From the NCBI GenBank assembly GCA_019637955.1, contig JAHBUS010000002.1, positions 372,001 to 436,000 on the forward strand: DNA of 64,000 nucleotides. The letters run 5' to 3'. The position numbers and the translations under genes were made by a program. The notes under the pieces are model-generated. The model was not told the origin of the DNA and did no database searches. It worked only from the letters and a program-made list of their open reading frames with translations. Source of the DNA: Pseudobdellovibrionaceae bacterium (lineage in GTDB: Bacteria; Bdellovibrionota; Bdellovibrionia; Bdellovibrionales; Bdellovibrionaceae). This document shows, one piece after another, positions 1,194-11,355 of the stretch. Numbering within the stretch: position 1 is the first letter of the stretch; each line of letters starts with the position of its first letter.

Positions 1194-1238
1194 GGTGGTG
1201 AGAGGTCATCGGAAACTCAAGTCCTCTCACCATCACCT
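1194..1238. terminator. Hairpin between convergent genes
   Basis: GGTGAGAGG at 1197-1205 pairs perfectly with CCTCTCACC at 1223-1231, with a 17-base loop, and GGT/ACC triplets extend the stem across a bulge. T-rich sequence occurs on both sides (TCTTTT to the right, ATTTTT on the minus strand to the left) though several bases away. It probably ends transcription of both the 752 gene and the tadA-like gene, whose stop it overlaps. Confidence 0.5.
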
Positions 1239-2330
1239 GATCTTTTCGAGTAAAAGTCCGTTCTCTTCCAAAGAGCTGACCCGATAAACGCCTTCAAGCA
1301 GCCGCTCGCCGCGCGCATTTCGGCCTATCACCACGATCGCCTGCAAGCTCATCTGAATCAGCCTTCGCACCGCCGACAAACTCCAATTCGGAGCCCCGAT
1401 CTGAACCAACATCTCGAGACGGATCAACGCCTGCGCCGCACTGGCCGCGTGGAGCGTGCCGAAGCTGCCCGCATGTCCCGTGGCGAGCGCCATCAAAAAA
1501 TCCTTGGCTTCATCGCCGCGAATCTCGCCCATCACCAAACGGTCGGGACGCAGCCTTAAGGCATTTCGTACGAGCTCGGTTTGATCCACTCGCTTCAGGA
1601 TCCCGTTGGGGTCTTCGCGGGTGAGCAGGCGCATCGAGGCCGCATTCGGCACTTTGAGTTCTAACGTGTCTTCGATCAACACCGCCCGCTCGTTTTCCGG
1701 AAGGCGCTGCAGGCACGCGTTCAGCACGCTGGTTTTTCCGGTGCCGGTTCCGCCCACCACCAAAAAATTCATGTGCGAGTCAACGATGCGCTGAATTTCT
1801 TGGATTTGCTCGCCGTGCCCCCAGCCGCTGGCGCCGAGTTTTTCAAAGGTCCAAGGGTTCTCGGGGTGGCGACGAAAGCTCAGGTGCACGTTCGAGCCCG
1901 TGAGTTCACCGCCGATCATGTGCAGACGGAACTGTCGCAGATGTCCGTGCGCCGTGGGATGCTCGGTGGTGAGCTGAACCCGCGCCTCCTCCATGAGACG
2001 GAAGCAGTAGTTGCGAAAACTATTTCGGCTGGCAAACCGGTCCTCATATCTTTGCAAACGGCCGTTGCGCTCGAACCAAATGTCGAACGGGCCGTTCACC
2101 AAAATCTCCGTGATGTCGTTTTGTTTGAACAAGGCGCCGAGCGGTCCGTCGCCGTGAAACTCCGCTTGCACCCGTTCTTGTTCCGAGACAGAAAGCGCTT
2201 TGATCCGCTGATGAATCAAAGCTTGGATTTTTTCTTGGCGGCCCTGGTCGGGAGCCATCTGGTAGGATTCGAACTCGGTGGAAAGCGTTTGCAGTTCGGC
2301 TTCGATTTGATTGAGCAGCTCGTGCATCAT
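1233..2330 (-). CDS. tadA: TadA/CpaF-family pilus assembly ATPase
   Basis: The hexameric secretion ATPase that powers Flp/Tad (type IVb) pilus assembly from the inner face of the cytoplasmic membrane. Of 365 residues, an N-terminal domain (ITEILVNGPFDIWFERNG) leads to a RecA-like core with Walker A GGTGTGKT (about residues 193-200), an Asp-rich box (IEDTLEL), Walker B (RPDRLVMGEIRG, about 261-272) and the His box FGTLHA (about 290-295), all typical of CpaF. The first ATG at 2330 overlaps the secretin stop as ATGA, with AAGGAG seven bases before it; an open frame reaching 2453 has no such signal. It is translationally coupled to the secretin gene. It is the last Tad gene on this side; no TadB/TadC follows. 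Confidence 0.93.
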   Translation of the reverse strand: MMHELLNQIEAELQTLSTEFESYQMAPDQGRQEKIQALIHQRIKALSVSEQERVQAEFHGDGPLGALFKQNDITEILVNGPFDIWFERNGRLQRYEDRFASRNSFRNYCFRLMEEARVQLTTEHPTAHGHLRQFRLHMIGGELTGSNVHLSFRRHPENPWTFEKLGASGWGHGEQIQEIQRIVDSHMNFLVVGGTGTGKTSVLNACLQRLPENERAVLIEDTLELKVPNAASMRLLTREDPNGILKRVDQTELVRNALRLRPDRLVMGEIRGDEAKDFLMALATGHAGSFGTLHAASAAQALIRLEMLVQIGAPNWSLSAVRRLIQMSLQAIVVIGRNARGERLLEGVYRVSSLEENGLLLEKIR

Positions 2331-3592
2331 CGCGCGGCTCCTTGTTGCAGTTTCACCAGTTCGGGGCGGACCAAAATAATAAGTTCGGTCTTGTTTTTCT
2401 TGAACTCCTGGCTCGAGAACAAGCTTCCAAGAATCGGGACTTTCGAGAGCCACGGAAATCCTTGCGTGCTCTGACCATCCTCCATGCGAATCAAGCCCGA
2501 GAGCGCGATCGTGCGGGGTTCGGTCAAATCGAAGTGGCTTTGCACACGGTTGGTTTCAAACCCCGGAATGCCGTCCACCACGTGAGAATCGTCCACCTTC
2601 GAGATTTCGGTCTCGATTCCTAAGCTCATGCGTCCGGAAAAATCCGCCAGGGGCTTGAGGCGCAGTAAGATGCCGTACTTCTTCCAAATCACGTCGGATG
2701 TGAATCGGTTCAAGATTTTGATGGGGATCTCACCCCCGGCCAAGAACTCCGCGTCCTTGCCGCTGCGGCAAAGAAGATTGGGGCTCGCGAGCACCCGGCC
2801 CACCCCAGCGCTCTCGAGAAAGCTGGCGGTCATCATGAGCCCGTCGACGCTCTCGCTTTTGGGAAGAATCTGCGCCTGATAACCCGGTCCCCACACGATC
2901 CCGTACTTCAGAACTTCGGCTTTTTTCACTTCAAGGATCATGATCTGCACGCGAATTGACGGTGCCAGCTCGAGAGCCCCGGCCTCCTTGACGACCTCGG
3001 CGCCAAAACTCGCGGCGGCTTTTTCGAACGCGGCCGCATCGGCTGATTGCTGAGGGATCACGAGCTGAAGCTGAGGCTGCCAGCGTACGCGAAACGAGTT
3101 GAAGCCTTGATCTTCGAAGTGGCGAATCAATTCGGCCTGAACCTGATCCTGCATATCGGTATGGAGATCAAAGCGGGCGCGGTAATCACAGCCCGCAACC
3201 CGGCAACTGCGGGCGATCGAAAACCAATCGCGGACGGAATTCAGCCGGCCCGCCAACACGATGGTTCCTTCTTCGATTTTCACCTCCAGACCGAGACGCT
3301 TTTTCGTCTCTTGCTGCAAGAGCAAATGGGTTTCGAATTGCCGTTGTTGCAGAACGGAAATCCGGTAGGGGACGGAGCCCAATCGCATCTGCAGGTGTCC
3401 GGGCTTGAGGCCCGTGATCTGGTAACCGGAACCAAGATCCCGGACACCAACAACCTTGGTCTGAGGCAGGACCAAGGTGTTTGGAGAGGTGAGGATTTTT
3501 TGCTCGCCCACGCGGAGCACCAAGTCGCGCGCCTCACTTTGCGACCACGAATAACTTTGCATGAGAGCTAAAAGAGCCAAAATCACCAGCAT
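2327..3592 (-). CDS. rcpA: RcpA/CpaC-type secretin of the Tad pilus
   Basis: An outer-membrane secretin channel for the Flp pilus, 421 residues. The N-terminus is a short signal peptide (MLVILALLALMQSYSWS), followed by a pilus-secretin N-domain (VVGVRDLGSGYQITG to GHLQMRLG), a BON-like region, and the C-terminal secretin domain containing VLASPNLLCRSGKDAEFLAGG and the closing strands (RTIALSGLI, PWLSKVPILGSLFSS, ELIILVRPEL). GGAGG lies five bases before the ATG. A 111-base gap separates it from the upstream receiver-kinase gene, and its stop overlaps the tadA start. The gene could equally be named cpaC. Confidence 0.92.
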   Translation of the reverse strand: MLVILALLALMQSYSWSQSEARDLVLRVGEQKILTSPNTLVLPQTKVVGVRDLGSGYQITGLKPGHLQMRLGSVPYRISVLQQRQFETHLLLQQETKKRLGLEVKIEEGTIVLAGRLNSVRDWFSIARSCRVAGCDYRARFDLHTDMQDQVQAELIRHFEDQGFNSFRVRWQPQLQLVIPQQSADAAAFEKAAASFGAEVVKEAGALELAPSIRVQIMILEVKKAEVLKYGIVWGPGYQAQILPKSESVDGLMMTASFLESAGVGRVLASPNLLCRSGKDAEFLAGGEIPIKILNRFTSDVIWKKYGILLRLKPLADFSGRMSLGIETEISKVDDSHVVDGIPGFETNRVQSHFDLTEPRTIALSGLIRMEDGQSTQGFPWLSKVPILGSLFSSQEFKKNKTELIILVRPELVKLQQGAAR

Positions 3593-3703
3593 ATCGACCT
3601 CCGGGAAGAGGTCTTCAGCAAAGTCGGCGGGTGCTTTTGAAGAGATCAGTTGGTCGTCGAAGAGCGGAGGCGGATCTTTCCGGAGGACCGGACGGACGAG
3701 CGC

Positions 3704-4813
3704 TTAGATGTAGGCGAGCTCGAAAGAGACCCGCACGCCCTCGTCCTCATTCTGGATTTCGAGAGCGGAAGAGTGGGCCTTGAGCAGGGCCTGGCAGACG
3801 GTGAGCCCAAGACCGACACCGGTCGAATGCTTCATCACATCTTCATCCAAGAAAAAGGGCTTGAGAATCTTATCGCGCACGCTGTCCGGGATCATGGAGC
3901 CTTCGTTAAAAACCGAAAGGCGCACGCGGTGCGGGCCACTGATTTCGGTGCGCACCTGAATTTTGCTGCCTTCCTTGGCGAACTTGAGACCGTTGTGCAC
4001 CAGGCGGCGCAAGATCTGCGAGACGGCGCCGGCATCGCCGATCACCCGTTTGTCGAAGAAATCGGTTTCCACCGAGATTTGGCGCTGGGCTTTGAGCTTC
4101 TCGACCTCGGGCTTCAGGGTGAGATCGATGCTACCGGTCTCGAAAGGCTGTGTCTTGAGTTTGAGCGTCTTGGTTTCGGCCGAGACGATCAGGAGCGAAT
4201 CATCGACGAGTTCTTTGAGCCGTTCCGAGCTTTTCGAAATTCGGGCCACGCAAACGGCCTGCTCTTCGTTGAGACTGGTTTCTTTGAGCAGATCCGTGAA
4301 GCTGATCATCGAGGTCAGGGGCGTTTTCAACTCGTGATTGATCAAAATCATAAACTGACTCTTCGCCTGATCGAGCGTTCGCAGTTCCGTCAGGGCCTCG
4401 GCAAGTTCGATATTTTTCTGCTTGAGTTCTTTATTCAGGGTGAAACGCTCGACCGCGCGGTCCACCGTCGCCGTCAAGTCGATCGGGTCCCAGGGTTTAT
4501 TGATGTAGCGGTAGATCTGTCCCGAGTTGATGGCCGCGACAACCGATTCGATATCGGTATAACCGGTGAGCAGGATACGGACCGAATCGGGGTGGGTGGT
4601 GAGCGACTTTTCGAGGAACTCAACGCCCGTCATTTGCGGCATGCGCTGATCCGTCAGGATCAAAGAAATGGGCTCTGGATGTTGGTCCAGGATCTCCAAG
4701 GCTTCCGCGCCGGAGGTGGCTTTCAGGACTTTATACTTGGCCCGAAAGAGGCGCTCGAGCGCCTCGACATTGTCGACCTCATCATCCACGCAAAGAATCG
4801 TCTGTTTGACCAT
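3704..4813 (-). CDS. Receiver-histidine kinase hybrid (REC-HisKA-HATPase)
   Basis: A soluble 369-residue signalling protein with the receiver domain at the N-terminus: acidic pair DD at 10-11, phospho-acceptor Asp at about 55 (LILTDQRMP), and the conserved Lys in YINKPW. A coiled linker leads to a HisKA dimerisation domain with the phospho-acceptor His near residue 160 (INHELKTPLT) and a HATPase domain with an N box (HNGLKFA), G1 (FNEG) and G2 (GVGLGLTVCQ). No membrane segments. It is inserted between Tad genes and is divergent from the Met-rich gene at 4975, so control of one or both is a reasonable guess. Its partner kinase or output regulator is not evident nearby. Confidence 0.9.
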   Translation of the reverse strand: MVKQTILCVDDEVDNVEALERLFRAKYKVLKATSGAEALEILDQHPEPISLILTDQRMPQMTGVEFLEKSLTTHPDSVRILLTGYTDIESVVAAINSGQIYRYINKPWDPIDLTATVDRAVERFTLNKELKQKNIELAEALTELRTLDQAKSQFMILINHELKTPLTSMISFTDLLKETSLNEEQAVCVARISKSSERLKELVDDSLLIVSAETKTLKLKTQPFETGSIDLTLKPEVEKLKAQRQISVETDFFDKRVIGDAGAVSQILRRLVHNGLKFAKEGSKIQVRTEISGPHRVRLSVFNEGSMIPDSVRDKILKPFFLDEDVMKHSTGVGLGLTVCQALLKAHSSALEIQNEDEGVRVSFELAYI

Positions 4814-4974: not shown

Positions 4975-7110
4975 ATGAAATTAGGGAAAGTGCATGTCCT
5001 TGTCTTGGGACTCGCGACCCTGCTTGGTGCCGAACGCGCAAGCGCGCAAAATTGGGGAACCGGTATGTACGGCGGTATGCAAGCCTGCCCCTACCAACTC
5101 CAGATCGGCGACGAAGCCACGAGTATCAAAGAAGATATGGAAGAGATGAACAAGGATTTGCGTGAAGTGAAATCCGAACTCTCCCGTTTGAAATCTCGAC
5201 TGAGCTCGCTGAAAACTTCGGTCAACTCGCAAAAAGACCTCTTCAAGTTGACCGGTTTTGAAGGTGAAGCGTTCTCGACAATCGAAAATCACATCACGGG
5301 CGGCTACAGCTGCGGAACTTATCAGCGCGTGACTTGCCCCGGTGGCCAAGCCAACGCCTCCGATGTCATCTCTTCAGGTGAAAACGCGCGGATGCCGGCA
5401 GCCGACATGCCTGGTGGTGGACGTCCGCAGCCCCCTCCTGGCAATCCTCGTCAAGGAACCCCGCAGGGCGATCCTTGCGGCAGCGGCACGTTGACCAGTC
5501 CCGCTCCCTTCGCTCCCGAAGTTTGGGCTCGTAGCTGCGAAAACGGTGGCGTGCGCGGATCGATCTGTGAACAGAATCTTCCCGGAAACCGCCCTCGTGG
5601 TTTCAACCCCGATTCTTGCCGTCGTTACTTGGGCACCTGGATCGAAAAACAACGTGAACTGCGCATGGCCGAAACGAAAGTCGCCGAACTCGATGCTCGC
5701 GTCAAAGAGCTCGAGGCGATGACCAAGGCCAAGAAACAAGAATTGCGCGAAGCCGTGAAAGAGTACGTTCGCGAACAGCGCCAGGCCCAGACCGAAGGTG
5801 GCTGTATCGATTGTATGATCATGGGCAACTCGGGCGTCATGCAGCAGCGCAAAGCCAGTGGCTGGGAGATCGGCGCGAACGTCGTGCTGGGGCTCGGCGC
5901 CATGTACCTCGGCAATCAAATGAATAAATACACGACCGATCAGAACGCGCGCCTCGGATTTCCGACGCAGCCGTATCCTGCTCTCGGTTACGGAATGCCG
6001 TTCTTCACCGGCGCGCTCTACGGCGCTCTCGGTGGGAGTACGGGCGGAGGCTCCTTCGGTTGCGCTGGCGGCGTGAACGGAAGCGGTTTCCCCAACGGTG
6101 CTTACGGTATGATGGGCCCCTTCGGCCAAGGCAGCATGTATGGCCCCATGGGCGGTGGTGCTTTCGGATATCCTGCGAACATGTTCGGCTCGCCCATGGG
6201 CGGCGGTATGTTCATGCCCGGGATGGGTCCGTTCGGCATGGGAATGCCCGGCGGTCTCGGCGGCGGCATGGGTATGGGAATGCCGATGGGCATGATGATG
6301 CCCGGTGGATTCCAAATGGGCGGAATGCCGATGGGGATGATGGTCTCCGGCGGCATCGGCATGATGGGTGGAATGCCCATGGGCATGCAGATGGGAATGA
6401 TGGGTGGCATGCCGATGGGTATGCAGATGGGGATGATGGGCGGAATGCCGATGGGCATGCAAATGGGCATGATGGGCGGCATCGGCATGATGGGCGGAAT
6501 GCCCATGGGAATGCAAATGGGAATGCCGATGGGCGCGATGGTCTCCGGCGGCAATATGATGGGCATGCCGATGGGAATGGCCATGGGAATGCCGATGCCG
6601 ATGATGGTTTCGGGCGGCATGATGATGGGCGGCGGAATGCCCATGGGTATGCAAATGGGAATGATGGGCGGCATGCCGATGGGGATGCAGATGGGAATGA
6701 TGGGCGGAATGCCCATGGGCATGCAAATGGGCGGCATGATGGACGGCGGAATGGCGATGCAAATGCAAATGCAGATGCAGCAGTCCATGATGCAAATGCA
6801 AATGCAGCAGTACCAACAATATGTGTCCATGCAGCAGCAGGCGTATCAGAGCCAAATGGCCCGCAGCCAAGTGGTGGCAGGTCTGACCCAAGAGATGTAC
6901 ACGCTCATGTTCCGCATTCAGCAGGCTCAAATGGGTGTTGGCACCGGCGGTTACATCGGTGTCGGAACTCCGGGAATGCCTGCACTTCCGGGTCAGCCTG
7001 GAGGCGTCAATATGATGGTGCCTTCAATGCCATACTCGACAACTCCCGGCGTGATGCCGATGACGCCCACCACACCCGGTACGGGCACGGCCGTTCCGAG
7101 TTACCGTTGA
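4975..7110 (+). CDS. Exported Met/Gly-rich repeat protein within the Tad locus
   Basis: A 711-residue protein of no family I can name. It has a signal peptide (residues 1-24, ending ASA), a coiled coil (about 47-95), a Cys-containing Pro/Gly region, a second long helix (about 220-272), a CIDC motif and a hydrophobic stretch (about 297-318). About 270 residues then follow in which roughly one in three is Met, built from the 12-mer GGMPMGMQMGMM, ending in a Gln/Met-rich segment and a Pro/Thr-rich tail. GAGGAG precedes the ATG. A terminator follows. It sits between the two halves of a Tad locus on the opposite strand, so a surface or pilus-related role is possible. Met-rich sequences can bind Cu(I) or absorb oxidants; nothing here proves either. 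Confidence 0.85.
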   Translation: MKLGKVHVLVLGLATLLGAERASAQNWGTGMYGGMQACPYQLQIGDEATSIKEDMEEMNKDLREVKSELSRLKSRLSSLKTSVNSQKDLFKLTGFEGEAFSTIENHITGGYSCGTYQRVTCPGGQANASDVISSGENARMPAADMPGGGRPQPPPGNPRQGTPQGDPCGSGTLTSPAPFAPEVWARSCENGGVRGSICEQNLPGNRPRGFNPDSCRRYLGTWIEKQRELRMAETKVAELDARVKELEAMTKAKKQELREAVKEYVREQRQAQTEGGCIDCMIMGNSGVMQQRKASGWEIGANVVLGLGAMYLGNQMNKYTTDQNARLGFPTQPYPALGYGMPFFTGALYGALGGSTGGGSFGCAGGVNGSGFPNGAYGMMGPFGQGSMYGPMGGGAFGYPANMFGSPMGGGMFMPGMGPFGMGMPGGLGGGMGMGMPMGMMMPGGFQMGGMPMGMMVSGGIGMMGGMPMGMQMGMMGGMPMGMQMGMMGGMPMGMQMGMMGGIGMMGGMPMGMQMGMPMGAMVSGGNMMGMPMGMAMGMPMPMMVSGGMMMGGGMPMGMQMGMMGGMPMGMQMGMMGGMPMGMQMGGMMDGGMAMQMQMQMQQSMMQMQMQQYQQYVSMQQQAYQSQMARSQVVAGLTQEMYTLMFRIQQAQMGVGTGGYIGVGTPGMPALPGQPGGVNMMVPSMPYSTTPGVMPMTPTTPGTGTAVPSYR
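6367..6738 (+). repeat. 36-bp in-frame tandem repeats encoding GGMPMGMQMGMM
   Basis: Three adjacent 36-bp units (6367-6474), a fourth at 6493-6528 after an 18-bp spacer, and three more at 6631-6738, with degenerate Met/Gly sequence between. Units differ mainly at third codon positions (GGT/GGC/GGA, CAG/CAA), so the amino-acid repeat is better conserved than the DNA. In-frame length change by slippage or recombination is likely. Confidence 0.9.
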
Positions 7111-7134: not shown

Positions 7135-7155
7135 AGGCCCTCGAAAGAGGGCTTT
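7135..7155 (+). terminator. Hairpin after the Met-rich gene
   Basis: GCCCTC, a GAAA tetraloop and GAGGGC (7137-7152), followed by TTT. The T-tract is short, so termination strength is uncertain. It lies 26 bases after the stop of the Met-rich gene and before the amidohydrolase. Confidence 0.6.
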
Positions 7156-7187: not shown

Positions 7188-8528
7188 TTGAGAATCGAGA
7201 TTCCCAGATGCTACGACAGTCACTCGCATCTTTTGGCCACGGGCCAAATGCTGTCGATGGTTTCGCTTTGGGATCTCCAAGCTCCCGCCGATGTCCGTCA
7301 TCTCGAACTGCACCCCCGCTTTTACCGCGGGGAGTGGCTGTTGGGATTTGGCTGGGACCAACACCGTTTTCCGAGCCCGTCGTTTCCCACCCGCTTCGAT
7401 CTTGACGCCATTTTTCCGTCGACGCCGGTCGCCTTCTCGCGCGCCGATGGTCATGCACTCTGGGTGAATACCAAGGCGCTTGAAGTGACCGGTCTGCTCA
7501 AACCCGTCAGCGAGTGGCGACTTCCCGCCGGCGCCGAGGCCATCGCGGATGACCGCGGTTTACCAACGGGTCTTTTGATCGACCGGGCGATGGAGCTGAT
7601 CTTTTCCGTGATCCCGCAAGACTCTCTCACGCAAAAGAAGAAAGATCTGCTCGAAGCCTGCGCTTCTTACAACCGTGCGGGATTCACACATTTGCGAGAC
7701 ATGTCGGGCGACGAGAGCCAGTGGCAAGCGCTCTGTGAGCTCGAAGCCGAAAAGTCGCTGACGCTTTACTTGGATCAAAACTTCACGTTCGAGCGGGCGG
7801 AAGACTTTAGCAAGGCTTTGGATCTTTCGATCCGCGCTCGTCGTGAAAAACACTCGCACCTCCAGCCTCGCGGTCTCAAGTTTTATGTCGATGGTGCGCT
7901 GGGTTCTGAGGGGGCGCTCTTGAGCCGCCCTTATCCGGGCGGAAATTCGAAAGGACTGCAACTCTGGAGTCTCGAGCAGATTCAGGAGTGGACGCAAAAA
8001 GCGTGGGAGCAAAATCTCGAAATGAGCGTTCACGCCATCGGAGATGAGGCGAGCTTTTTGGTCGCCCAGGCCGCACGGCAAACTTGGGAGAAGGGCGTGC
8101 ACGGTGTTCTGAATCTCGAACATGCCGAAGTCGTTCGCCCGGAGACCTTCGATCTTCTCCGTGGTATCCCCACCGTTTTCCACATGCAGCCGTGTCACTG
8201 GAATTCGGACCGCCGTTGGCTCAAAGAAAAACTCGGCCCTTTGTACGCACACGTGTTTCGTTGGACCGAAGCCCGCGAGCGCGGCTTCGAAGTCATTTGG
8301 GGAAGCGATTCCCCCATCGAAAAGCCTTCGCTTTTCGACAACCAGTCTGCGCTTGAGCACTCGCCCGAAGCGGGGATTCCCGCCTTCCCTGGCGATTGGT
8401 GGCGGCCGCACGTGCACCCGAATCCAAAATGGGGAGAAGGCTGCCGAACCGTCATCGAAAATGGACAGGTCGTGCGCGTCGATTTCGACGACCGCACGGT
8501 GTTTGAGTCGACGGTCAATTCGAATTGA
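7188..8528 (+). CDS. Amidohydrolase family 3 (YtcJ-like) metal-dependent hydrolase
   Basis: A 446-residue TIM-barrel metallohydrolase of the amidohydrolase superfamily; the substrate is unknown. Metal-site motifs are present in order: DSHSHLLATG near the N-terminus, SRADGHALWVN, YVDGALGSEGALLSRPY, VHAIGDEA, LEHAEVV and IWGSDSPIEKP. The protein begins almost directly at the barrel and lacks much of the usual N-terminal beta-domain, which explains why it is shorter than typical YtcJ proteins. The start is TTG at 7188, with GAGAAGGGG upstream; no ATG serves. Its 3' end overlaps the convergent gene at 8515 by 14 bp. It appears unrelated to the Tad genes around it. Confidence 0.87.
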   Translation: MRIEIPRCYDSHSHLLATGQMLSMVSLWDLQAPADVRHLELHPRFYRGEWLLGFGWDQHRFPSPSFPTRFDLDAIFPSTPVAFSRADGHALWVNTKALEVTGLLKPVSEWRLPAGAEAIADDRGLPTGLLIDRAMELIFSVIPQDSLTQKKKDLLEACASYNRAGFTHLRDMSGDESQWQALCELEAEKSLTLYLDQNFTFERAEDFSKALDLSIRARREKHSHLQPRGLKFYVDGALGSEGALLSRPYPGGNSKGLQLWSLEQIQEWTQKAWEQNLEMSVHAIGDEASFLVAQAARQTWEKGVHGVLNLEHAEVVRPETFDLLRGIPTVFHMQPCHWNSDRRWLKEKLGPLYAHVFRWTEARERGFEVIWGSDSPIEKPSLFDNQSALEHSPEAGIPAFPGDWWRPHVHPNPKWGEGCRTVIENGQVVRVDFDDRTVFESTVNSN

Positions 8529-9435
8529 TTCGCAGTTTCTTTCCACTCGCGGACAAGGCGAGCATTCCCAAGCCCACCGCGATTACGGTCCACATCAAGG
8601 TTTTCTTGCCGTCAAAGCGCGAGCGCGACTCGATCGCGGGATCGTGATAAATCGGCGCCTGCGACAGTCCTTCCCCCTGACATTTAAAATCGAAGAAAGC
8701 CATTTTCTCTCGCGGCGCGAATCCCAGATCCTGAATCTCGGATTGATCGCAGGAACCCTTCACCCAATTCACGGGCTCTTGAGCGGGCTGCATGAGAAAC
8801 TCGGCCCAAGTTCCGTCAAAGAGCTTGGGCTTCCATTGACTCGACAGCATAATCCATTGTCCCGTGTCTTGTGCGTTCAAATCCCAACGCTCATTCCAAA
8901 GCACGCCGTTAAAAAAGAGGGCGGCGTCTTCCCCGCCAGGCTTGGACTTGAGCTGCGTCAGCCAAGACTTAATTTCTTGTTGGGTCAGCGTTGGTTTTTG
9001 CGTCCACTCGGAAGCAGCGACACCTTCGATTTTCTCAAGAGAGACTTTTTGTTGCCGGTAAACGTCGGCCTCGTCCGCCGGAACAATCGGAATCAGGCGT
9101 CCCAAAAGCGCCTTCGTCGTCTCGCGCACCGCCAGCGTGCGGGGGCCTTGAATGGCCAGTGCCAGAACCGATTTGTAAGCCTCACGGGCGCGATCGGGCG
9201 TTTGAGCCGCGAGCGTCAGCACCTCGTCGAGCTTGAGTTGCAGTTCGGCGGGAAGGTCGGCGGCCTTGAGGCGCGAGGCCATCACGTCGACGGGTGTGAT
9301 TCGAAACGAATTGCCCGTAATCGATTCACGGTATTGACGGATATCAGCTCCGGGCGCACGGTACACGGTCAATTGCGCCAGCGAAGTTGAGGACAGCATC
9401 GAGACAGCCAGACCCAGACAGATTGTTTTTTTCAC
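8515..9435 (-). CDS. Exported/membrane-anchored protein of the Tad operon, unknown
   Basis: A 306-residue protein I do not recognise. It has a signal peptide (MKKTICLGLAVSMLSSTSLA), a helical middle, a WNERWDLNAQDTG region, and a C-terminal transmembrane helix (about 281-297) followed by a short basic tail. The start is GTG at 9435, overlapping the preceding stop as GTGA, so it is translationally coupled to the RcpC/CpaB-like gene and most likely belongs to the pilus machinery, perhaps as a periplasmic component. It is the last gene of the flp-proximal block. Confidence 0.8.
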   Translation of the reverse strand: MKKTICLGLAVSMLSSTSLAQLTVYRAPGADIRQYRESITGNSFRITPVDVMASRLKAADLPAELQLKLDEVLTLAAQTPDRAREAYKSVLALAIQGPRTLAVRETTKALLGRLIPIVPADEADVYRQQKVSLEKIEGVAASEWTQKPTLTQQEIKSWLTQLKSKPGGEDAALFFNGVLWNERWDLNAQDTGQWIMLSSQWKPKLFDGTWAEFLMQPAQEPVNWVKGSCDQSEIQDLGFAPREKMAFFDFKCQGEGLSQAPIYHDPAIESRSRFDGKKTLMWTVIAVGLGMLALSASGKKLRINSN

Positions 9436-9932
9436 GGAGCATCTCCCGGTAAATATTGAACGCGCGATTTTTTGGGTTTCTTGTTAATCATCTCGGATTT
9501 TTCATTTTTTGCCCGGCTCAGAACGACCGCCATCAGCGGATGAGGCTGCGCGAGCAAAAGCGCCGCCTCATCCGAAGGCACGAGCGCCGAAAATTGCTCG
9601 GGATTATTCGGTGATCGAAGCAGCTTGATTTTTTTTCCGACCAAGGTGCCTTTGGTGATCCCGTCCATCGAAGGCGTGTACAGATTGACCACGGCAAAAG
9701 CCCCAATGAGAGACTGAAGCGCTTCGCTGTTTTGAATCATGAGCGGAACGAGCGAGTAGCCTTCAGGAATGTATTCATCGGGCGACGCATTTTCGACTTT
9801 AACGGCCTCGGGCACCGCCGTCTGCGCTTGGTAAACGGCTAGCATTGAGAGGATCACGAGACCCGCCATCAAACTCATGCGGTTGCGTGGGTTTTGAAAC
9901 CAGACGGTAAAATGTTTTTTCAGATCTTTCAT
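9432..9932 (-). CDS. RcpC/CpaB-like Flp pilus assembly protein (tentative)
   Basis: A 166-residue protein with one N-terminal membrane helix (about 21-38, MSLMAGLVILSMLAVYQ) and a periplasmic part. The segment YIPEGYSLVPLMIQN, then AFAVVNLYTP, LVGKKIKLL and SALVPSDEAALLLAQ resembles the SAF-like and RcpC domains of CpaB/RcpC, including the closing strand LMAVVLSR. It is shorter than usual CpaB. Start chosen at ATG 9932 with GGAG upstream; the frame opens earlier without a ribosome site. It overlaps its neighbours by 4 bases on both sides. The assignment rests on weak similarity plus context. Confidence 0.6.
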   Translation of the reverse strand: MKDLKKHFTVWFQNPRNRMSLMAGLVILSMLAVYQAQTAVPEAVKVENASPDEYIPEGYSLVPLMIQNSEALQSLIGAFAVVNLYTPSMDGITKGTLVGKKIKLLRSPNNPEQFSALVPSDEAALLLAQPHPLMAVVLSRAKNEKSEMINKKPKKSRVQYLPGDAP

Positions 9933-10150
9933 CGGGCTCTCCGTTTGTAGGTTTTTTGCATCGAGGACTCGACCGCACTGACGCGTGAATGCAGTGACCA
10001 AAGAATCGCGCTCAAGAGGACCGTTAGAACCAACGCCTCAAAGAGAACTTGCCCGTGTTCAGACGCACTTGCAGACGGTCTTTTGGGTCGGTTCGTTCTT
10101 GAAGGGTGACTTCGCAACTTTGAGGTTTGCTCCACGAGGCGCGGCTCCAT
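9929..10150 (-). CDS. Very small prepilin-like protein of the Tad locus
   Basis: A 73-residue protein with a long basic leader ending EHG, followed by QVLFEALVLTVLLSAILWSL: a Gly at the cleavage site, Glu at +5 and a hydrophobic helix, as in type IV prepilins and TadE/F pseudopilins. GGAGA lies seven bases before the ATG at 10150, and no later start is available in frame, so the gene overlaps the 3' end of the TadG-like gene by 127 bp. If real, it would be processed by a prepilin peptidase and act as a minor pilin. The unusual overlap keeps some doubt. Confidence 0.62.
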   Translation of the reverse strand: MEPRLVEQTSKLRSHPSRTNRPKRPSASASEHGQVLFEALVLTVLLSAILWSLHSRVSAVESSMQKTYKRRAR

Positions 10151-10872
10151 GATCGATTCTCCTTTGTGATTCCGTAGCTGGTCTTCCAAGAAATGGACTG
10201 GGCCTGCAGGGATGAGAACAACGGCATCAACTCGTATTCCGGATACTCTTCGCTCGGATCCGACGGACGGATCGCGAGGTAAGGAAAGGACCTTCGGGTC
10301 ACCGAGCCATGAACCGCCATGAGAGCGGTCGACTGCTGCTGGTGTTGCTGGCGCCATTCGTCCCGGAGAGCGCTCTCGGCTCGGCTCATGGCCGACCAGA
10401 GCTGTTGAGTTCCCATGATGATATGCATTTGACGTTTCGCCAGAAGCAACCGAAGGGTCAAAATCGCACCACTTCGAATTCTCTCGCCTTGAACAAGTGT
10501 GTATGGATTCGTCATCAGTGCTTCGCCAATAGCCTTCGCCTTTTTCGCCCAAAAAATTGGTCTATTGAGCGCCAGAATTTTTTCGATGACGTCGCCGGCT
10601 TGCCGCTGCCCTTCCGCCAGTTCGGCTTGGCAGATGAGCATTGATTTGCGTTCGACGAGAACCCCACCGATGTGGGCAAAAACCAAAAGAGCGGCGGTGA
10701 CCAGAACCGGCAGGAGCGCCAATGCTAGAATCGCGGCGAAACCGTCATCGGAATGAATCGGCCGGTAGGGGGCTGGGGGCCTGCAAATTCCATTGGACGG
10801 GGATCTTGCCCCAGTGTGCGCGGATAAAGAGATGAGCTGTGGGATTTTGAAACCAACCAACCACTTGGGCAT
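10024..10872 (-). CDS. TadG-like pseudopilin/pilus assembly protein
   Basis: A 282-residue protein with a single membrane helix (about residues 45-70, GFAAILALALLPVLVTAALLVF) preceded by a polar region and followed by a mostly helical extracytoplasmic part. This layout and position resemble TadG, which anchors or caps Flp pili. The ATG at 10872 has GAGGA seven bases upstream, but choosing it gives a 128-bp overlap with the TadE-like gene; there is no ATG, GTG or TTG between residue 5 and the membrane helix. The N-terminal 40 residues therefore come from sequence also read in another frame. Function inferred from context and topology. Confidence 0.68.
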   Translation of the reverse strand: MPKWLVGFKIPQLISLSAHTGARSPSNGICRPPAPYRPIHSDDGFAAILALALLPVLVTAALLVFAHIGGVLVERKSMLICQAELAEGQRQAGDVIEKILALNRPIFWAKKAKAIGEALMTNPYTLVQGERIRSGAILTLRLLLAKRQMHIIMGTQQLWSAMSRAESALRDEWRQQHQQQSTALMAVHGSVTRRSFPYLAIRPSDPSEEYPEYELMPLFSSLQAQSISWKTSYGITKENRSWSRASWSKPQSCEVTLQERTDPKDRLQVRLNTGKFSLRRWF

Positions 10873-11086
10873 TGGAGAATCCTCCGAGTTTGAGAAGATC
10901 TTGAGCGCGCTCGCGTGCTTCCAGCAGACAATGAACCGAGGTTTTGGTGCTGAGATGGCAACTCGCGTACTCTTCGGTGGTTTGAACTAGCGAAAGGCGC
11001 AAACCCCCGAGGACCAGCGTAAAGACCGCGAGAACAATCAGGGCGATCGTGGCCGGTAGGGCCACGAGCGACTCGACCGTGCTCAC
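10745..11086 (-). CDS. TadE-like minor pseudopilin
   Basis: A 113-residue protein beginning STVESLVALPATIALIVLAV, a pseudopilin-type N-terminus with a Glu followed by a long hydrophobic helix, as in TadE/TadF. Two Cys (CHLSTKTSVHC) may form a disulfide. The start is GTG at 11086, sharing one base with the Flp stop TAG, with GGAG seven bases upstream inside the pilin gene; it was chosen because the frame upstream is only the pilin gene's shadow. It would be processed by the prepilin peptidase and act in Flp pilus biogenesis at the inner membrane. Confidence 0.72.
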   Translation of the reverse strand: MSTVESLVALPATIALIVLAVFTLVLGGLRLSLVQTTEEYASCHLSTKTSVHCLLEARERAQDLLKLGGFSNAQVVGWFQNPTAHLFIRAHWGKIPVQWNLQAPSPLPADSFR

Positions 11087-11355
11087 TATTGAGCTCCGGT
11101 CATGAAGTCGTTCATGTCCTTTTTCTTCCAATTGGTTTTGATCACCGTGGCTTCGCCGATGTCGTCGGTGACCGTCGCGCCGAGGGCTTTGGCGACTTGG
11201 GCGAATTTGACCTGCACGCTTTGACCCACCACGCGCATCACCGATAGAGTCGCGACGGCGACGAGCGCGACGATGATCAGGTATTCGACCAGGCCCTGAC
11301 CGCGCTGATTTTTGACCGTTCGTAAGGGCGATTTCTGAATTTGTGTTTGAGACAT
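11086..11355 (-). CDS. flp: Flp (type IVb) major pilin
   Basis: An 89-residue prepilin. The leader ends QRG and the mature protein begins QGLVEYLIIVALVAVATLSV, matching the Flp motif (Gly before the cut, Glu at +5, Tyr at +6, then a hydrophobic helix). The mature part, about 70 residues, is longer than the shortest Flp pilins and ends in a polar Lys-rich tail. GAGGAGG precedes the ATG. It heads the minus-strand Tad operon, and the 118 bases upstream must contain its promoter, although no convincing one was seen. Type IVb pilins are reported to be needed for predation in Bdellovibrio-type predators, which would fit here. Confidence 0.93.
   Translation of the reverse strand: MSQTQIQKSPLRTVKNQRGQGLVEYLIIVALVAVATLSVMRVVGQSVQVKFAQVAKALGATVTDDIGEATVIKTNWKKKDMNDFMTGAQ

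Follow-up and report, generated by a model that had tools for sequence, protein, structure and literature searches.

Beside a second set of Tad-pilus genes, nearly all relatives of Bdellovibrio carry a gene for an exported protein whose homologues form an uncatalogued family. This family, with its conserved head and low-complexity tail, is a near-constant neighbour of the Tad locus throughout Bdellovibrionales, including Bdellovibrio bacteriovorus HD100. The member described here, for which MetP is used as the working name, is an exported protein with a Gly/Met-rich tail encoded at positions 4975 to 7110 (plus strand) of the window, the whole stretch of 64,000 nucleotides analysed. Our tentative view is that MetP is a structural component, probably adhesive, that belongs to the envelope or surface and serves the second Tad pilus system, the one with the flp3-type pilin, as an accessory.

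The split Tad locus around MetP

The genes of the locus are as follows.

1233 to 2453, minus strand: TadA/CpaF-type ATPase (PF00437, E = 5e-37; TIGR03819, E = 3.5e-64, below the equivalog cut-off)
2327 to 3592, minus strand: secretin (PF00263, E = 6.6e-32)
3704 to 4813, minus strand: soluble receiver-histidine kinase fusion, the divergent neighbour (Pfam Response_reg, HisKA and HATPase_c)
4975 to 7110, plus strand: MetP, 711 aa (ORF with ribosome-binding site; 88 homologues)
7188 to 8528, plus strand: amidohydrolase (PF07969), present in the interruption only in some families
9432 to 10001, minus strand: RcpC-position protein, 189 aa, membrane-anchored (no Pfam match; conserved synteny)
11086 to 11355, minus strand: Flp pilin, corresponding by position to HD100 flp3 (PF04964, E = 1.1e-6, below the curated cut-off)

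The minus-strand Tad genes form two blocks, one comprising TadA, the secretin and the receiver-kinase (1233 to 4813) and the other extending from the RcpC-position protein to the Flp pilin (8515 to 11355), and the interruption between them consists of MetP and the amidohydrolase, both on the plus strand. The MetP ORF begins with an ATG preceded by an AGGAGA ribosome-binding site. The sequence-only reading of an exported repeat protein encoded opposite to the Tad genes and between their two blocks is confirmed. Two large antisense ORFs over MetP (5374 to 6930 and 6102 to 6830) were rejected as shadows of ATG-rich DNA, and a terminator-like hairpin 3' of the gene (7135 to 7154, plus strand) is at chance level (one found versus 2.1 expected in shuffles).

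The locus resembles known Tad (type IVb/c, Flp) loci in that a TadA-family ATPase, a secretin, a Flp pilin with a class-III signal and small membrane proteins surround MetP; the pilin is the best Flp match in the genome, and its match to Class_IIIsignal (E = 9e-4) is below the curated cut-off. It differs from these loci in lacking TadB and TadC and in being split by a divergent unit, and the standard Tad components described in the literature cited here include no counterpart of MetP. Because the TadB/TadC platform is absent, we speak of a Tad locus rather than of a self-sufficient Tad system; the two single-domain T2SSF proteins of the genome are encoded on contigs C13 and C9 and may serve the other Tad system as well. 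Genome-wide, these two TadB/TadC-like proteins stand against four TadA matches at 1e-20, and the two Tad systems of the window genome may share one inner-membrane platform.

The recurrent gene order across genomes is AspRS, a small ORF, TadA, secretin and receiver-kinase and then, divergently, MetP (with or without the amidohydrolase), p306, the RcpC-position protein, a TadE/G-like protein, Flp and FolD. Among the 86 homologues that could be placed, 73 are divergent from, and at most 3.5 kb away from, the receiver-kinase, secretin or TadA gene, and 12 of the other 13 are second copies, a linked one being present in the same genome; the linked copies are on other contigs in G029 and G035 and, in the named isolates represented by L084 and L087, at L080 and L090. 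The sole case of MetP away from the TadA half is G042, where the gene is nevertheless beside the amidohydrolase. With 73 of the 86 linked and all but one of the rest being second copies, the adjacency to Tad genes that had been set as a check on the sequence-only reading holds strongly.

The neighbours themselves are less constant. The amidohydrolase directly follows MetP in many families, but several others lack it at this place, which leaves MetP as the constant part of the interruption. Loci without the receiver-kinase (L114, L115 and L127) still have MetP next to the secretin. Three genomes of two genera (G041, G048 and G039) have kept both halves of the split locus, that with TadA and that with the pilin, and have lost MetP. 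In genus g25 (L105 and L106), the TadA/secretin/receiver-kinase half is found beside ftsQ-ftsA-ftsZ-like genes, and MetP has been lost.

The window genome has a second copy of its own (L037, 8487 to 10244), and the HD100 paralogue is encoded near 0.527 Mb. The second copies in genera g1 and g7 (L037 as compared with L047, L039, L049 and L058) occupy a similar locus, flanked by an OmpR-type regulator/kinase on one side and an L,D-transpeptidase on the other, in the window genome as well as in the HD100 relatives, and yet the two copies of the window genome are sisters in the phylogenetic tree (support 99/95). Gene conversion between these copies would explain both observations and appears likely, independent duplication into the same place being less likely.

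Conserved head and drifting tail

Searches of related genomes yielded 88 non-redundant MetP homologues in genomes of the Bdellovibrionaceae type, in other families of Bdellovibrionales and in the neighbouring family f11. A contig scan with a subset alignment produced matches in Bdellovibrionota-type genomes only; three genomes further out in the phylum gave weak matches only (E about 1e-5), and a tblastn search of plasmids gave none. Searches against Pfam, NCBIfam, PHROGs and PDB sequences returned only sub-threshold coiled-coil matches, and Foldseek detected no structural match in the PDB (best E = 3.5), in agreement with the earlier statement that no family of this type is known. What the homologues have in common is a Sec signal peptide, the N-terminal motif WGxGMYGGMQxC, a pair of coiled coils and a set of eight near-invariant cysteines; the last three of these features, together with a Gly/hydrophobic tail and adjacency to Tad genes, characterise the proposed new family. 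The parts of MetP, all on the plus strand, are listed below.

4975 to 5046, plus strand: Sec signal peptide, residues 1-24, cleavage between ASA and Q (read from the sequence)
5047 to 5088, plus strand: mature N-terminal motif QNWGTGMYGGMQAC, including the first conserved cysteine, C38 (alignment A1)
5110 to 5247, plus strand: coiled coil 1, residues ~46-91 (AlphaFold2 helix, pLDDT mostly 79-95)
5608 to 5796, plus strand: coiled coil 2, residues ~212-274 (63-residue AlphaFold2 helix, pLDDT ~65-94)
5794 to 5814, plus strand: EGGCxxC motif, residues 274-280, with C277 and C280 (alignment A1)
5860 to 5952, plus strand: hydrophobic glycine-spaced helix, residues ~296-326 (AlphaFold2, low confidence, pLDDT ~50-64)
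6064 to 6756, plus strand: low-complexity Gly/Met tail core (Gly 35%, Met 36%, charge 0)
6367 to 6474, plus strand: three exact GGMPMGMQMGMM units
6493 to 6528, plus strand: one variant unit (GGMPMGMQMGMP)
6631 to 6738, plus strand: two exact units and one variant unit
6766 to 6933, plus strand: Gln/Met-rich C-terminal helix, residues ~598-653 (AlphaFold2 residues 574-629 of the mature chain, modest confidence)
7096 to 7107, plus strand: C-terminal PSYR, the terminal Arg being invariant in family f1

The signal peptide (MKLGKVHVLVLGLATLLGAERASA followed by Q) reads as Sec type I, without a lipobox; its A24 is near-invariant in alignment A1, in which G28, G30 and C38 are invariant. C38 is present in 86 of 87 further homologues, and 77 of the 87 keep at least seven of the eight conserved cysteines (38, 113, 188, 198, 215, 277, 280 and 363), a pattern that would fit disulfides and an oxidising compartment. 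The two coiled coils, which like the signal peptide had been proposed from the sequence, are borne out by confident AlphaFold2 helices (residues 46-91 and 212-274), and the hydrophobic helix that follows them carries invariant and near-invariant glycines.

The tail is disordered in the AlphaFold2 model (pLDDT mostly below 50), and the full-length prediction yielded no fold for it. Its densest 270 residues include 96 methionines (36%), and in residues 401-600 Met reaches 42% and Gly 34%. The GGMPMGMQMG.. unit occurs seven times, as five exact 12-mers (residues 465, 477, 489, 553 and 565) and two copies with one change each (residues 507 and 577); the sequence-only reading was thus right about the extent, the methionine content and the number of units, only five of which are identical. 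The nucleotide differences among the exact units (3-5 per pair) all fall on third codon positions, so selection maintains the repeat at the protein level.

Comparison of the tail cores of all 88 homologues reveals what is maintained in the family. Glycine (mean 37%, CV 0.21) and the summed hydrophobic residues (41%, SD 5.6, CV 0.135) are steady and charged residues are mostly zero, whereas methionine ranges from 0 to 37% (CV 0.60), exceeding 20% in many relatives, dropping to no more than 10% in some lineages from several families and being traded for Leu, Ala, Phe and Tyr; the negative correlation between Met and the other hydrophobics (Spearman rho -0.86) is partly a consequence of their near-constant sum. 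Accordingly, the conserved property of the tail is its bulk physical character and not thioether chemistry. The repeat unit differs between lineages, being GGMPMGMQ in MetP, GMMGAYPG in HD100 relatives, GLGGLGGL in genus g6 and L068, and GGFQMPGG in genus g3. Among HD100 and three close relatives, the 342-aa head is unchanged and the tail varies between 258 and 278 aa, with 8-9 MMGAYPG units, as expected from the earlier prediction that repeat number would differ among strains. The swapping of hydrophobic side chains within one family makes the tail a natural experiment, useful for the study of elastic or adhesive low-complexity proteins.

The C-terminal helix has the consensus QMQQQMMQMQMQQYQ...LQQE.Y.L..RIQQ. 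The terminal Arg is found in all 35 complete gap-free homologues of family f1 and in 18 of 29 from other families, compared to about 8% of Arg-ending genes as the background in the same loci. Two candidate exceptions in f1, L063 and L074, were rejected: N-filled gaps in these assemblies shift the frame, and the correct one ends in Arg. We know of no sorting signal that accounts for this residue, and the C-terminal Arg (within a motif like PS.R) is possibly a sorting or processing signal. Many draft assemblies (L041, L042, L044, L045, L013, L082, L084, L097 and others) end within the repeat tail, and MetP is therefore often truncated or split in databases.

Possible functions of MetP

Under the tentatively preferred reading, that of a Tad-associated structural accessory, MetP would be exported by Sec, as its signal peptide suggests, and its head, given the eight cysteines and the predicted helices, would form disulfides in the oxidising periplasm and oligomerise via the two coiled coils. 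The charge-free Gly/hydrophobic tail would serve as a spacer, elastic and sticky in the manner of silk or elastin, with the Gln-rich helix and the C-terminal Arg at its end. Selection would act on the bulk physical character of the tail alone, as the comparison of homologues supports, so that Met, Leu, Ala and aromatic residues could interchange and the repeat number could drift. The reading draws on the divergent position next to Tad genes across many families and on the Flp pilin of the same locus. The loss of MetP from the three genomes in which the Tad halves remain suggests an accessory rather than a core part of the machine. Counted against this reading are the silence of flp3 and the lack of a predation phenotype upon its deletion (PMC5430801). 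The second copies away from Tad genes and the lack of a Foldseek match also weigh against it.

Elastin, silk and glycine-rich proteins combine charge-free Gly/hydrophobic tandem repeats and fast repeat turnover with helical or disulfide-joined terminal domains. MetP seems alike in all three respects but is bacterial, has a cysteine-stapled head and shows no detectable sequence relation to these proteins. A bolder idea, which we consider doubtful, is that of a lineage-wide "bacterial silk", in which a Cys-stapled coiled-coil head with an elastic, drifting tail, encoded in the second Tad locus, would mediate attachment of the predators to cells or surfaces.

A possible, if rather improbable, alternative places MetP in the periplasm as a Tad scaffold, where the head would bind the secretin or peptidoglycan and act as an atypical pilotin or alignment component, while the tail would span or fill the periplasm instead of being exposed on the surface. 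The disulfide and coiled-coil head would suit such a role, as would the position next to the secretin in loci that lack the receiver-kinase. So would the second copies that, in two genera, adjoin an L,D-transpeptidase bearing a peptidoglycan-binding domain. However, three genomes from two genera retain TadA and the secretin without MetP, and the tail is much more variable in length and sequence than would be expected of a fitted machine part.

It is also conceivable, though we think it unlikely, that MetP is a structural protein of the envelope, part of a sheath or matrix or associated with the cell wall, and that its position beside Tad genes reflects gene order only. The entire block from AspRS to FolD is conserved, housekeeping genes included, second copies are located elsewhere, and in HD100 the silent flp3 can be dispensed with (PMC5430801), all of which agree with such a history. 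Nevertheless, MetP stays while the amidohydrolase of the same interruption comes and goes, and the three genomes with a broken-up block have also lost MetP, as if its function needed the block.

Methionine-specific chemistry can be set aside with more assurance. MrpX-type periplasmic methionine-rich peptides occur with a methionine sulfoxide reductase, and MetP is likewise exported and of Met-rich low complexity, but it differs in its non-conserved methionines, its coiled-coil/Cys head, its place in a Tad locus and the lack of an adjoining reductase. Cu(I) binding or a sacrificial oxidant sink, suggested in the sequence-only reading, fits the tail of MetP itself (36% Met) and those of the many relatives above 20%, but not the lineages of several families in which Met makes up 10% or less and Leu, Ala, Phe and Tyr take its place, and no copper or methionine-sulfoxide-reductase genes are seen among the annotated neighbours of MetP or in the conserved block. 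Since tail Met varies from 0 to 37% among the 88 homologues while glycine and hydrophobics persist, copper or oxidant chemistry is unlikely to be the ancestral role, and as the function of the family we consider it highly improbable.

The least credible reading, a large tip (minor pilin) protein comparable to the Kil tips of Myxococcus xanthus, would suit a large exported protein of a Tad locus, given that tip complexes bear variable exposed domains and that one has been predicted in Bdellovibrio (PMC12075869), but it was rejected on the type-I signal peptide. Kil tips, which resemble what is proposed for MetP in being Tad-linked, in belonging to a predator and in having a variable exposed part, are minor pilins with class-III signals (PMC12075869), whereas MetP has a Sec type-I signal peptide, neither a class-III (pilin) motif nor an N-terminal pilin helix, and no match to pilin families in Pfam.

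The counterpart in Bdellovibrio bacteriovorus HD100 and the predation link

Genome G036 matches HD100, as the bd0110 primer published in PMC3818213 has an exact match in it at 99.3 kb. In HD100, bd3306 is the pilQ secretin and bd3307 is cpaF (PMC3818213), bd3297 is flp3 (PMC5430801), and bd3311 is mentioned in a paper on aspartyl-tRNA synthetase (PMC4206432). Between flp3 and the receiver-kinase there are seven genes, as many as there are gene numbers, and by this count the MetP orthologue would be Bd3304; a literature search on MetP and its HD100 counterpart found no study mentioning the gene.

The flp3 gene has been reported as silent, deletable without loss of predation and outside the TAD locus (PMC5430801). 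Contrary to the last of these assignments, the loci compared here place flp3 within a second Tad locus that has a TadA ATPase, a secretin and an RcpC-position protein of its own, as well as a large exported protein, so that work on the function of flp3 can turn to conditions in which this locus is used. A flp3-type pilin is seen at 3035 to 3334 in L057 and at 11086 to 11355 in the window, each within a Tad locus.

The sequence-only reading had connected MetP with the host-interaction (hit) region and with predation. The hit locus, with Bd0108 and Bd0109 (PMC3818213, PMC4267844), offers a parallel in its small disordered or repeat proteins beside Tad genes of the same organisms; however, these have no known similarity to MetP and the Tad locus is a different one, TadA of the hit locus being at about 100 kb in HD100 and that of the MetP-type locus at 3.225 Mb. 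On this genome position the connection with the hit locus was rejected. The predation link, too, is weakened, given that flp3 is silent and dispensable (PMC5430801). By contrast, bd3307 is listed among the genes whose expression in host-independent strains is below that of attack phase (PMC3818213), so regulation with the life cycle applies to at least part of the locus.
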